From the NCBI GenBank assembly GCA_943329845.2, contig CALQFM020000003.1, positions 1-64,000 on the forward strand: a DNA stretch of 64,000 nucleotides. The letters are read 5' to 3'. Under the pieces are notes generated by a model. That model worked only from the letters and a program-made list of their open reading frames with translations, was not told the origin of the DNA and did no database searches. A program made the position numbers and the translations under genes. The DNA comes from Candidatus Kuenenia stuttgartensis (GTDB lineage Bacteria > Pseudomonadota > Alphaproteobacteria > SMXS01). Of the stretch, positions 50,676-56,563 are shown one piece after another. The first letter of the stretch is position 1; the number at the start of each line of letters is the position of its first letter.

Positions 50676-51692
50676 CTAAACCGTGAACGGCAACCTCAGC
50701 CCCGGCCGCGGCCAGTCGATGGCGATCAGCTGCCCCAAACCCGACAGCGTCACATAGGCCGTCTTCATGTCCGGGCCGCCGAACGCCACGTTGGTGGCGA
50801 GGAAATCCGTGTTGATCGGCGTGTGCTCGATGGTCTGGCCGTCGGGCGTGATGCGGGTCAGGCCGCCCTTCACCGGCGTGGCGATGACGATGCTGCCGTC
50901 TTCCTCGATGGCCAGCGAATCCCAGTAAGTGTTGCCGCCGGGGGAGGCCACGGTGCGTCCCTGGAAAAGCCCCGCCGCCTTCGCCACCTCGCCTTCACCG
51001 ACGATATCGAAGGCGAGCAGGTGGGCGCTCATGGACTCGGCCGCGTAGACCGTCTTGCCGTCGGGCGAGATGCCGCAGCCGTTCGGCGTCAGCAGTCCGA
51101 ACACCGCCTCCTTGACCAGCGATCCGTCGGGCTTGCCGTAGTAGAGGCCGCCGCGGTCCTGGTCGCGCGACCGGCCCTGGCCCAGATCGGTGAACCAGAA
51201 GCCGCCATTGCGGTCGAACATCAGGTCGTTCGGTCCAGTCAGCTTGTGGCCGTTCACGGTATCGTAGAGCCGCGAGACCTTGCCGGTCTTCAGGTCGACC
51301 CGGTCGATGGAGCCGCCCCTGTAGTTGTTGGCCTGGTGGCCGGGCAGCACTAGGCCGCTGGGCAGGGTGTGGAACTCGAAGCCGCCATTGTTGGTGACGT
51401 AGCAGGCGCCGTCCGGGCCGATGGCCGCGCCATTGGGGCCGCCCGGCACCTCGGCCACCACCTCGACGGTGCCGTCCGGCCAGCACTTGGCCAGCGCCTG
51501 GCCCTGGATCTCGGTGACCAGCACGCTGCCATCATTCATCACCACCGGGCCTTCGGGGAAGCGCAGGCCTTCCGCGATCACCCGGTAGTTGACGGCGGGG
51601 ACGACTGTCGTCGGCGGCGTGTAGACCGGTGTCGCCCTGCAGGCGTCGATCAGGCTTTGCGCGGCAGGCGCGCGTTTTTCCCGGGTACCCAT
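50676..51692 (-). CDS. SMP-30/gluconolactonase family protein (paralog 1)
   Basis: ITEGLRFPEGPVV-type motif (VIAEGLRFPEGPVVMNDGSVLVTEIQG); FDRNGGFWFTDLGQG. Confidence 0.9.
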   Translation of the reverse strand: MGTREKRAPAAQSLIDACRATPVYTPPTTVVPAVNYRVIAEGLRFPEGPVVMNDGSVLVTEIQGQALAKCWPDGTVEVVAEVPGGPNGAAIGPDGACYVTNNGGFEFHTLPSGLVLPGHQANNYRGGSIDRVDLKTGKVSRLYDTVNGHKLTGPNDLMFDRNGGFWFTDLGQGRSRDQDRGGLYYGKPDGSLVKEAVFGLLTPNGCGISPDGKTVYAAESMSAHLLAFDIVGEGEVAKAAGLFQGRTVASPGGNTYWDSLAIEEDGSIVIATPVKGGLTRITPDGQTIEHTPINTDFLATNVAFGGPDMKTAYVTLSGLGQLIAIDWPRPGLRLPFTV

Positions 51693-51712
51693 GGTGTTTC
51701 CCTCTCTGTGAA

Positions 51713-52723
51713 TCAGGCGGTGTAAGGCAGCTTCAGGCCGGGTCGCGGCCAGTCGATGGCGATCAGCCGGCCGGCGCCGGTCAGGGTGACGTAGGCGGTC
51801 TTCATGTCCGGTCCGCCGAAGGCCACGTTGGTGGTGAGGAAGTCGTCGAGCGGCGTGTGTTCGATGGTCCTGCCGTCCGGCGTGATCCGCATCAGGCCGC
51901 CGCGCTGCGGGCAGGCGATGACGACGCTGCCGTCGGCCTCGATGGCGAGTGAATCCCAGAAGGTGTTGCCGCCGGGCGCGGCGATCAGGTGGCCGGGCAG
52001 GAAGCCGCCCTGCTTGCTGACCGTGCCCTCGCCGGTGATGTCGAAACCGTAGAGCCGGCCGGTCGGGAACTCGGCGACGTAGACCCGCTTGCCGTCGGGC
52101 GACACCCCGCAGCCATTCGGCCCGATCAGCGGGAACACCGCCTCGGTCACGAACGAGCCGTCGGCCCGGCCGTAGCACAGCGAGCCACGGTCGGTATGCC
52201 GGCCCACGGTCTTGCCCAAGTCGGTGAACCAGAAGCCGCCGTTGCGGTCGAACATCAGGTCGTTGGGCGCGCTCAGCCTGTTGCCGCCGGCGCTGTCATA
52301 AAGGGTGGTCACCTTGCCGGTCTTCAGGTCGACCCGGTCGATCGATCCGCCGGTGTAGCCGTTCTTCGGCGAGGCGGGCATCGTCAGGCCCATGGGCGTC
52401 CTGACCCATTCGAAGCCGCCATTGTTGGCGACGTAGCAGGCGCCGTCCGGTCCGATGGCGGCGCCGTTCGGTCCGCCGGGGACTTCGGCCACCACTTCCA
52501 CCGTGCCGTCCATGTAGCAGCGGCTGAGCGTCTGGCGCTCCATCTCGACCAGGATGACGCTGCCGTCGTCCATGACCACCGGACCTTCGGGAAACCGCAG
52601 GCCTTCGGTGATGACGCGGATGTTGACGGGCGGCACCGTACGCACCGCCGGGGTGTCGACGGGGGTGGCGCCGACCTGGGCGATGGTGGACGCAGGCAGC
52701 GGCGTAGGCTTCGACCGGCTCAT
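51713..52723 (-). CDS. SMP-30/gluconolactonase family protein (paralog 2)
   Basis: VITEGLRFPEGPVVMDDGSVILVEMERQTLSRC; FDRNGGFWFTDLGKT; closely similar to the adjacent gene. Confidence 0.9.
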   Translation of the reverse strand: MSRSKPTPLPASTIAQVGATPVDTPAVRTVPPVNIRVITEGLRFPEGPVVMDDGSVILVEMERQTLSRCYMDGTVEVVAEVPGGPNGAAIGPDGACYVANNGGFEWVRTPMGLTMPASPKNGYTGGSIDRVDLKTGKVTTLYDSAGGNRLSAPNDLMFDRNGGFWFTDLGKTVGRHTDRGSLCYGRADGSFVTEAVFPLIGPNGCGVSPDGKRVYVAEFPTGRLYGFDITGEGTVSKQGGFLPGHLIAAPGGNTFWDSLAIEADGSVVIACPQRGGLMRITPDGRTIEHTPLDDFLTTNVAFGGPDMKTAYVTLTGAGRLIAIDWPRPGLKLPYTA

Positions 52724-53517: not shown

Positions 53518-54285
53518 CTAGAGCCCGCCGGCAACGGTGATTATCTCGCCGGTCACCCAGGCTGCGGCGGGCGAGGCCAGGAAGACCGCTGCGCCGCAGA
53601 TGTCCTGTTCCTTGCCCATGCGCTTCATCGGGATCTTGATCATGTCGACGAGGCCCGGAAGCTGCTCCTCGGTCAGCTTGAGCGCCTCCATGAACACCTC
53701 GGTCGGGATCGGGCCGGGCGAGATGGCGTTGACCCTGATCTTCGGCGCCAGCTCGGTCGCCAGCGTCTTGGTCAGGCTGTTCACGCCGGCCTTTGCCGCG
53801 CCGTAGGGACCGTTCATCGGCGCCGGCTTGGCCGCGGCGATGGACGAGATGTTGATGATCGCGCTGCCTTCCGGCATGCGCTTGGCCGCCGCGACGCTGC
53901 CAGCCCAGACCGCCTTGAGGTTCAGGCCCAGCTGGTAGTCCCACTGGTATTCCGGCAGGTCCATGAAGGTGCGCATGGTGCGGTCGTCGGCGCCGCCGGC
54001 GTTGTTGACCCAGATGGTCAATTTGCCGAGTTGCTTCACGGTTTCCTCGGCCAGATTGTCGATGGCCGCCATGTCCATCATGTCGGTGGTGATCGCCGCC
54101 GACCTGCGGCCAAGCGCCCTGATCTCGTCGGCCACCGCCTCGATCTCGGCCGTGCGCCGCGCCGCCACCGCCACGTCGGCGCCCGCCTCGGCCAGCGCCA
54201 GCGCGATCGCGCGGCCGATGCCGCGGCCCGCGCCGGTTACCACCGCCACCTGGCTGTCCAGGCGGAACTGATCCATGATGCTCAT
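53518..54285 (-). CDS. SDR family oxidoreductase
   Basis: VAVVTGAGRGIGRAIALALAEAGADVAVAARR; NNAGGAD; YGAAKAGVNSL. Confidence 0.92.
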   Translation of the reverse strand: MSIMDQFRLDSQVAVVTGAGRGIGRAIALALAEAGADVAVAARRTAEIEAVADEIRALGRRSAAITTDMMDMAAIDNLAEETVKQLGKLTIWVNNAGGADDRTMRTFMDLPEYQWDYQLGLNLKAVWAGSVAAAKRMPEGSAIINISSIAAAKPAPMNGPYGAAKAGVNSLTKTLATELAPKIRVNAISPGPIPTEVFMEALKLTEEQLPGLVDMIKIPMKRMGKEQDICGAAVFLASPAAAWVTGEIITVAGGL

Positions 54286-54457
54286 CGAATTCTCCCCGTT
54301 GTCAAAGCAGGTCCGTTCATGGCCGATAAGGTGTGCCATGTCCAGATGCCAAAAGCGCGTGTGACTTTAAATCTCGAATTCAGCAAAATGTTTGGATTGC
54401 AGTTAGCCTTGTCTATCCTTGCGACGAATGCGTTCGCTGAACTTGATGAGAGTTTCT

Positions 54458-55204
54458 ATGGTCGTAAAAGTAGCAATCGTTCAGTTCGAAAAGTCAGATT
54501 TTGAGAGTATGCCGCCTGTTGAGCGGGATTTCCTCATCATGTGTGGTCATATTTCCAACGAAATATTAATATTAGGTAAAACCATTATGGCATCTCAAAA
54601 TTTTCCAACTGAGAAGATTGCTCTTAGGATAGCTTTGGCCCAATCAGTATTTTTTGCACGCTTGCTTGCTGGAAAGCTTTATGAAGCGTGGGGTGCTCTA
54701 GATGCGCGATATTTTTCCACTCAGCTCTCTAAAAAATATGATGGCGTAATGGAGAAAGACGCTGAGATAGCTCTAGAAGGGTTGAGAAAGTATTTCGGAA
54801 AATCCACGAATGCAATTAAATTGATAAGAAATTCATACTCGTCTCACTATACAAAGGAGGATCTTCAGAGAGGTCTGGATGCGATATCCGAACCTGATGA
54901 GCTGTCTATGTATCTGTCGCAATGCAACGTTAACAGTTTTTATTACATGTCAGATATCATACTAAATCGCGTGATGTTCGATAAATTTTATAGAAGCGAT
55001 TTATCCACTGCTTTTAATAAAATGTACAAGGAAATAGTACAGGTGCAAGGCTGGATGATAGAATTTATGTCTCATGCTATAATGACAGTATCGGAAAAAT
55101 ACATCGATATATCCGAGGGCCGAGTCATGAAAGGCGAAAATAATTATTCGTCGTGTCCGAAGCCGGATGATCTTCGGATGCCAATTTTTATTGATATTTC
55201 CTAG
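54458..55204 (+). CDS. orphan helical protein with HEPN-like RN-x4-H motif in an AT-rich islet
   Basis: AT-rich ORF in a GC-rich window; LIRNSYSSHYTKEDLQRGLD with motif codons at 54827-54847; alternative start 54419. Confidence 0.65.
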   Translation: MVVKVAIVQFEKSDFESMPPVERDFLIMCGHISNEILILGKTIMASQNFPTEKIALRIALAQSVFFARLLAGKLYEAWGALDARYFSTQLSKKYDGVMEKDAEIALEGLRKYFGKSTNAIKLIRNSYSSHYTKEDLQRGLDAISEPDELSMYLSQCNVNSFYYMSDIILNRVMFDKFYRSDLSTAFNKMYKEIVQVQGWMIEFMSHAIMTVSEKYIDISEGRVMKGENNYSSCPKPDDLRMPIFIDIS

Positions 55205-55240
55205 GTTTGCTTGCCTTTAACCGTGGCTAGAAATCTGTTG

Positions 55241-55271
55241 CCAACTCGATACCGGTTCCGTACCGAGTTGG
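55241..55271 (+). terminator. Hairpin downstream of the AT-rich orphan gene
   Basis: CCAACTCG-ataccggttccgtac-CGAGTTGG; no clear poly-T, so terminator assignment is tentative. Confidence 0.4.
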
Positions 55272-55303
55272 CGCAGTCGCTGCTTAACCGTGAATGAAGG
55301 AGT

Positions 55304-56563
55304 CTACTTCTTCGGCGTGAACTCGATATGCAGTTCCTTCAGCGCGCGCAGCGCGAAGGTCGGCCCATGCTTGAAGTCGTTCTTGCCCTCGGCGAACTGG
55401 ATATGGTCGAACTTGTCGACCATGGCCTTGAAGCCCCAGTAAAGCTCGCGGCGGGCCAGCGGCGCGCCCAGGCAGTGGTGGACGCCCGAGCCGAACGCCA
55501 TGTGGCTGCCGGCGTTCTTGCGGTCCAGGTCCAGCTTCTCCGGATTGTCGAAATGCCGTTCGTCCCGGTTGGCCGAGGCGTAGCGGGTGTTGATCATGGC
55601 GCCCTTGGGGATGTGCACGCCGTGGATCTCGATGTCCCTGGCGGCGACCCGGAACAGGCTCTGCACCGGGCTTTCGAGCCGCAGCACCTCCTCGACGAAG
55701 GTGCGCAGGTCCTTCTCGACGCCCTGCTTCAGGCGCGCCCACACATCCGGGTTCTGGATCGCCAGCATCATGCCGGCCGACAGCGCGTTGGTGGAGGTCT
55801 CCGAGCCGCCGACGAAGGTGTCGGCCATCATCTCGGCATGCAGCTCGTTGTCATTGAGGGTGCGGCCCCATTCGGGGATCACGGTGTTGACCAGATCGGA
55901 CAGCAGCGTGTCGTTGGGCTCCTTGCGCAGCTTCTCGAAGATCGGCTGGAAATAGTGCTGGGCCTCGATCTCCATTTCGACCGACCAGCGTTCCTCTTCC
56001 TCGCTCAGCATCATGCCGAGGCGCTGCACCCAGGCGTCGGTCCAGGCCTTGATCCGCCAGATGTCCTCTTCCTTGGCGCCCATCTGCTTGCCGATGATGA
56101 TCAGCGGCAGCGGCACGGCGAACTGGTGGACCCACTCGCAGTGGCCGTCCTTGATGAAGGCGTCGATCAGCTTGTAGGCGGTTTGCTCGACCGCCGGATC
56201 GACTTCCTTGATCTTGCCGGCGCGGAAGGCGTTGTCGAACATGGCGCGCATCTGCTTGTGGTTCGGGTCGTCGCGGCCGGCCAGGGTCGGCTCGGGCACC
56301 CAGCCCTTCTCCTCGTAGAGCTTGCGCATGCGCTGGGTGCGCTCGGGGACGAGGGTCGCCTTGGGGCGCTGGTTGCTGAAGCTCTCGGTGTCGAGCAGCA
56401 CCTTGCGCAGGTCGTCATAGCGGGTGATGAAATAGAAACCGGTCACGCCATCCTTCCACACCGGCGCTTCGTCGCGCAGGGTACGATAGGCGTCATATGG
56501 GCATTCCTGCAGGTCCGGTTCGAAGAAGTTGAACTCGGGCGTCTTGGCGGCGGTGGTGCTCAT
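55304..56563 (-). CDS. cytochrome P450
   Basis: HMAFGSGVHHCLGAPLARREL heme-binding motif; ETSTNALSAGM I-helix; EEVLRLESP ExxR. Confidence 0.95.
   Translation of the reverse strand: MSTTAAKTPEFNFFEPDLQECPYDAYRTLRDEAPVWKDGVTGFYFITRYDDLRKVLLDTESFSNQRPKATLVPERTQRMRKLYEEKGWVPEPTLAGRDDPNHKQMRAMFDNAFRAGKIKEVDPAVEQTAYKLIDAFIKDGHCEWVHQFAVPLPLIIIGKQMGAKEEDIWRIKAWTDAWVQRLGMMLSEEEERWSVEMEIEAQHYFQPIFEKLRKEPNDTLLSDLVNTVIPEWGRTLNDNELHAEMMADTFVGGSETSTNALSAGMMLAIQNPDVWARLKQGVEKDLRTFVEEVLRLESPVQSLFRVAARDIEIHGVHIPKGAMINTRYASANRDERHFDNPEKLDLDRKNAGSHMAFGSGVHHCLGAPLARRELYWGFKAMVDKFDHIQFAEGKNDFKHGPTFALRALKELHIEFTPKK

Follow-up and report, generated by a model that had tools for sequence, protein, structure and literature searches.

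HEPN RNases are characterised by an Rx4-6H motif with a polar residue (N, D or H) directly after the Arg. In their published layout, the Arg sits at the end of a helix and the His in the loop that follows (Anantharaman et al. 2013, PMC3710099), and a conserved acidic residue, often within an Ex3[KR] context, is contributed by helix-2 (PMC3710099). Among the systems described so far, we find solitary proteins such as AbiU2 (PF18734), the active HEPN family of Bxe_C0808, which is encoded in an operon with AbiU2 (PMC3710099, Table 1), the HepT component of MNT-HEPN pairs, which is accompanied by a nucleotidyltransferase antitoxin, and an integron-cassette HEPN protein with a deposited structure (PDB 3jrt). 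For integron-cassette HEPN proteins, a role in stress or dormancy was proposed by Anantharaman et al. (PMC3710099).

The window analysed here – the whole 64,000-nucleotide stretch of DNA, in whose numbering all bare positions are given – contains a single gene that invites comparison with these systems. Its predicted product, a HEPN-like protein of 248 aa from an uncatalogued family, is encoded on the + strand at 54458..55204, as judged from the list of open reading frames and the alignment of relatives. It carries the motif R124-N-S-Y-S-S-H130 (Rx5H, with Asn next after the Arg; 54827..54847, + strand), exactly the R-N-x4-H that the sequence-only reading had picked out within LIRNSYSSHY. Like the window protein, AbiU2 is solitary, about 240 aa long and helical, with a motif of the R-polar-x4-H type, although several AbiU2 members have other motif spacing or residues. 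With MNT-HEPN/HepT it shares the R-N-x4-H motif and the Asn after the Arg, but it is larger, has a C-terminal helical extension, lacks a nucleotidyltransferase antitoxin and gives no profile match.

The gene lies in an AT-rich islet between two GC-rich genes for an SDR oxidoreductase and a cytochrome P450, and both the composition and the codon usage bear out this initial description. In sliding windows, GC content is 0.35–0.41 across approximately 54350–55250, compared with 0.65–0.69 before and 0.62–0.66 after it, and the islet is the lowest-GC segment of the window (minimum 0.40 versus a median of 0.667). The ORF itself has a GC content of 0.387 (39%, versus about 64–69% in its surroundings) and a GC3 of 0.398, against 0.885–0.938 in nine neighbouring genes. 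As had been noted, this one ORF fills the islet, starting at 54419 (TTG) or 54458 (ATG) and ending at 55204; the N-termini of the aligned relatives favour the ATG.

Alignment of the junction with four genomes of the same genus (G001, G004, G002 and G005) defines the islet as a 934-bp insertion at 54369..55302. The left flank, the SDR gene (53518..54306, − strand), is native, with an orthologue beside the P450 gene in all four of these genomes. So is the P450 gene on the right (55304..56563, − strand), which has a close relative, 86–96% identical, in 6/6 same-genus genomes; the insertion lies directly past its stop codon. In the four genomes, the SDR gene follows the P450 gene after only about 64–75 bp, leaving an empty junction, GACTTT^(T)CTACTTC, in which the right end of the insertion can be placed to within 1 bp. 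Elsewhere in the window, on the − strand at 50676–52723, there are two tandem paralogous SMP-30/gluconolactonase-like genes.

The gene itself occurs in none of the same-genus (n = 6) or same-family (n = 3) genomes and is absent from the other 190 of the 191 related genomes searched. As four same-genus genomes have the empty site and the remaining relatives lack the gene, we conclude that it was gained horizontally. That a foreign gene was acquired is near certain, and the islet is best explained as a recent insertion with this one complete gene. The acquisition proposed by the sequence-only reading is thus strongly supported by the four empty sites, the absence elsewhere, the foreign composition and an integron-cassette member within the family. 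It would take extraordinary circumstances for the gene to be ancestral to the host instead, lost from the relatives and brought to its low GC by local drift: a deletion would leave an identical empty junction, and nothing speaks directly for it, but the gene is missing from the six same-genus genomes, the three same-family genomes and the rest of the 191 relatives, its GC3 is 0.40 rather than about 0.9, and its closest relatives by identity are found in Auribacterota and another proteobacterial class. Only many independent losses could rescue host ancestry, which these observations contradict.

Transposon-like ends were considered and rejected, as the target-site duplication is at most 1 bp and there are no terminal inverted repeats; nor does the insert contain a transposase or, within 54369–55302, an attC-like pair behind the ORF. 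It carries one gene only, with no MNT antitoxin or other small partner gene, in line with what had been suspected. Behind the ORF, at 55240..55272, an imperfect hairpin (GCCAACTCGATACCGGTTCCGTACCGAGTTGGC) with the arms GCCAACTCG...CGAGTTGGC is indeed present as described, and on either strand it is more stable than dinucleotide-shuffled sequences (z −4.0 for + and −5.3 for −). It is not a canonical terminator – a T tract is absent and no intrinsic terminator is called – and, occurring as a single copy in the genome, it is not a dispersed repeat either. On reading the sequence, a 9-bp direct repeat, TTAACCGTG, is seen to flank the hairpin inside the insert (55217–55225 and 55284–55292, together spanning 55217..55292).

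Searched as a single sequence, the 248-aa protein found no match in Pfam, NCBIfam, PADLOC, PDB, phage records or viral contigs; viral contigs scanned with the family alignments gave no match, and no family member was found in phage records. Nor were the relatives described below recognised by any of the family libraries. Around 19 relatives were nonetheless collected by tblastn on plasmids, whole-genome profile searches and one motif-based scan. They are scattered over Alphaproteobacteria, Gammaproteobacteria, another proteobacterial class and Auribacterota, and those compared at full length are 19–31% identical to the window protein, the highest identity (31%) belonging to the relative from Auribacterota. 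By path, the nearest row is that of G641, from another proteobacterial class, in a tree whose branching near the window protein is largely unresolved. The family is rare and patchy: leaving out the window's own genome, it occurs in 2/385 genomes of the class, 2/399 of the phylum and 7/76 in the order of G363. It is uncatalogued in the sense of being missing from Pfam, NCBIfam and PADLOC, and may possibly be the same as the little-described one of Bxe_C0808, for which Table 1 of PMC3710099 gives an operon with AbiU2, as seen in G641; the libraries searched yielded no model for Bxe_C0808.

The Arg and His of the motif had been named before any relative was known, so their conservation was a real test, and one that they passed. 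Because the loci from the motif-based scan had been fetched by the motif itself and were therefore biased, conservation was redone on ten relatives found without it (two rows, P0005 and L094, are orthologues). Only N34, E76, R124 and H130 are invariant among these ten, with H31, G72, K111, I123 and N125 near-invariant; R124 and H130 are also invariant in 14/14 rows of the larger alignment. The chance of two named columns both falling among 4 invariant ones of 248 is about 2 in 10,000, bearing in mind that the rows are not fully independent. The Rx4-6H spacing is conserved through the family, and the residue directly after the Arg is polar, being Asn in nearly all relatives and Ser in one. The second long helix (53–86) of the model contains the invariant E76 (codon at 54683..54685, + strand), a predicted active-site residue that corresponds to the acidic residue of helix-2, though its Ex3[KR] context is absent. 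The motif, with R124 and H130 invariant in the relatives spanning it, is in turn predicted to be catalytic.

AlphaFold models of the window protein (pLDDT 79.7) and of a relative from Bradyrhizobium CER78 (80.4) are both all-helical, in keeping with the mostly helical protein anticipated by the sequence-only reading. In the window model, helix 119–124 ends at R124 and H130 falls within the stretch 128–132; in the model of the Bradyrhizobium relative (L014), R123 lies inside helix 118–127 and H129 after the helix. In both, the placement of the two residues relative to helix and loop agrees with the published HEPN layout. Yet Foldseek searches against PDB (two models) and BFVD (one model) returned no significant HEPN match, the top hits being unrelated helical bundles, and the cassette-borne 3jrt was returned by neither sequence nor fold. 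Helical bundles are poor Foldseek targets.

None of 14 family members matched any HEPN profile, and none scored above the cut-off of the AbiU2 Pfam model PF18734. With hhalign, AbiU2 gave a weak score of 20.8 (P 0.04) with the motifs in register, against 10.9 for a reversed decoy, while DUF4145 gave nothing; in a control, AbiU2 against DUF4145 gave nothing either, and as two curated HEPN families thus failed to recognise each other, the test lacks power. The lack of a Foldseek match and the weak profile score are the reasons why we call the protein HEPN-like rather than file it as a proven member, although membership of the HEPN fold is probable. Motif conservation and helix/loop placement speak for the HEPN-like effector proposed at the outset, to which the Foldseek and profile searches have so far lent no support. 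One could conclude from the absence of a significant match to any HEPN structure or profile that this is an all-helical protein of another fold and function, such as RNA binding or sensing, in which E76, R124 and H130 form a different site and the HEPN likeness is coincidental. We consider this improbable, as the HEPN description is matched by the residues that never vary and the spacing between them, by the polar residue that follows the Arg and by the helix positions, and both searches were of a kind in which HEPN proteins may be missed: curated families failed the same profile test, and the fold is a difficult target for Foldseek. Overall, the protein is likely to be a HEPN-type RNase.

What such an RNase might do is suggested by the surroundings of its relatives. 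In G641 (L054:2397-4028), an AbiU2 HEPN gene (PF18734, 42 bits) is followed 127 bp downstream by a family member; between the two families there is the weak profile similarity given above. The pair sits between genes that read, as ORFs, like serC and a ribonuclease D-like gene, and may form a two-gene HEPN island amid apparent housekeeping genes. In Bradyrhizobium, the family gene lies directly behind a DUF2235/Tle1-like gene and, on one plasmid, adjoins qatA/B/C. In G805 (L101:6518-11284), a defence-like island comprises a Drt8-like fragment, the family member, a PLD/RE_NgoFVII gene and then a DUF2779/Cas4-like gene. Several relatives stand alone among ordinary or metabolic genes; no MNT gene was found next to the relatives examined, and no conserved partner gene beside them.

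Some Bradyrhizobium copies appear to have decayed. Two plasmid copies (L002:5962-6525 and L003:5962-6531) are cut after about residue 157, and their new C-terminus is similar to the C-terminal tails of AAA/SbcC-like proteins from plasmids; given the cut and the replaced C-terminus, they look recombined and probably broken. In Bradyrhizobium iriomotense (L013:7697-8591), an apparent deletion took most of the DUF2235 gene together with the N-terminus of the family gene, fusing the remnants.

By analogy with the AbiU2, Qat and Drt8-like/PLD/Cas4-like neighbourhoods, a defence role is reasonably probable, and it is through these neighbourhoods of relatives only that the suggestion of a defence or abortive-infection gene is supported. 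Other relatives travel in a different company. Directly behind the Teredinibacter waterburyi gene there is an attC-like site whose ends are perfectly complementary (L010:821-889), and similar attC-like ends recur on the contig, including at L010:1240-1353; this sequence pattern marks that relative as a gene cassette of an integron. The Auribacterota relative belongs to what is probably an integron cassette array (L009:1240-4150), where small orphan genes, one of them containing DUF4145, alternate with almost identical spacers, each about 60 bases long and with CTAACGTTAGGC at its end. Here the family resembles the cassette-borne 3jrt, though the window copy has no attC.

These two cassette contexts, the PIN-domain toxin gene some 0.4 kb away from the L015 relative and the dormancy proposal for cassette HEPN proteins (Anantharaman et al., PMC3710099) would all suit an RNase of the stress or plasmid/cassette-stabilising type, toxin-like or dormancy-inducing, that slows growth under stress and aids persistence of its element. 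This seems to us rather unlikely, since the insert lacks an antitoxin-like partner, the relatives have no conserved one, and the Bradyrhizobium, G641 and G805 contexts favour defence. We lean, with moderate confidence, towards a stand-alone, abortive-infection-like RNase of HEPN type that was acquired horizontally.

In such an RNase, the active site would consist of R124, H130, N125 and probably also E76, and would most likely be a composite one between the two subunits of a dimer. The enzyme would be held inactive until infection or stress and would then cleave host or phage RNA in a metal-independent manner – a chemistry taken from characterised HEPN enzymes (PMC3710099) – thereby halting growth before phage release. 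Such an arrest has been put forward for solitary HEPN proteins of the Abi type, AbiU2 among them. More tentatively still, the relatives may represent an undescribed family of stand-alone HEPN RNases that crosses phyla by way of cassettes, plasmids and single-gene insertions, and that may act against phages alone or, in certain lineages, in partnership with a DUF2235/Tle1-like hydrolase or AbiU2.

An uncatalogued family would thus be added to the HEPN-like effectors, one that current defence-gene predictors would miss, and because it arrived here as a single-gene insertion with known empty sites, the function gained by the host may be tested between near-isogenic genomes.
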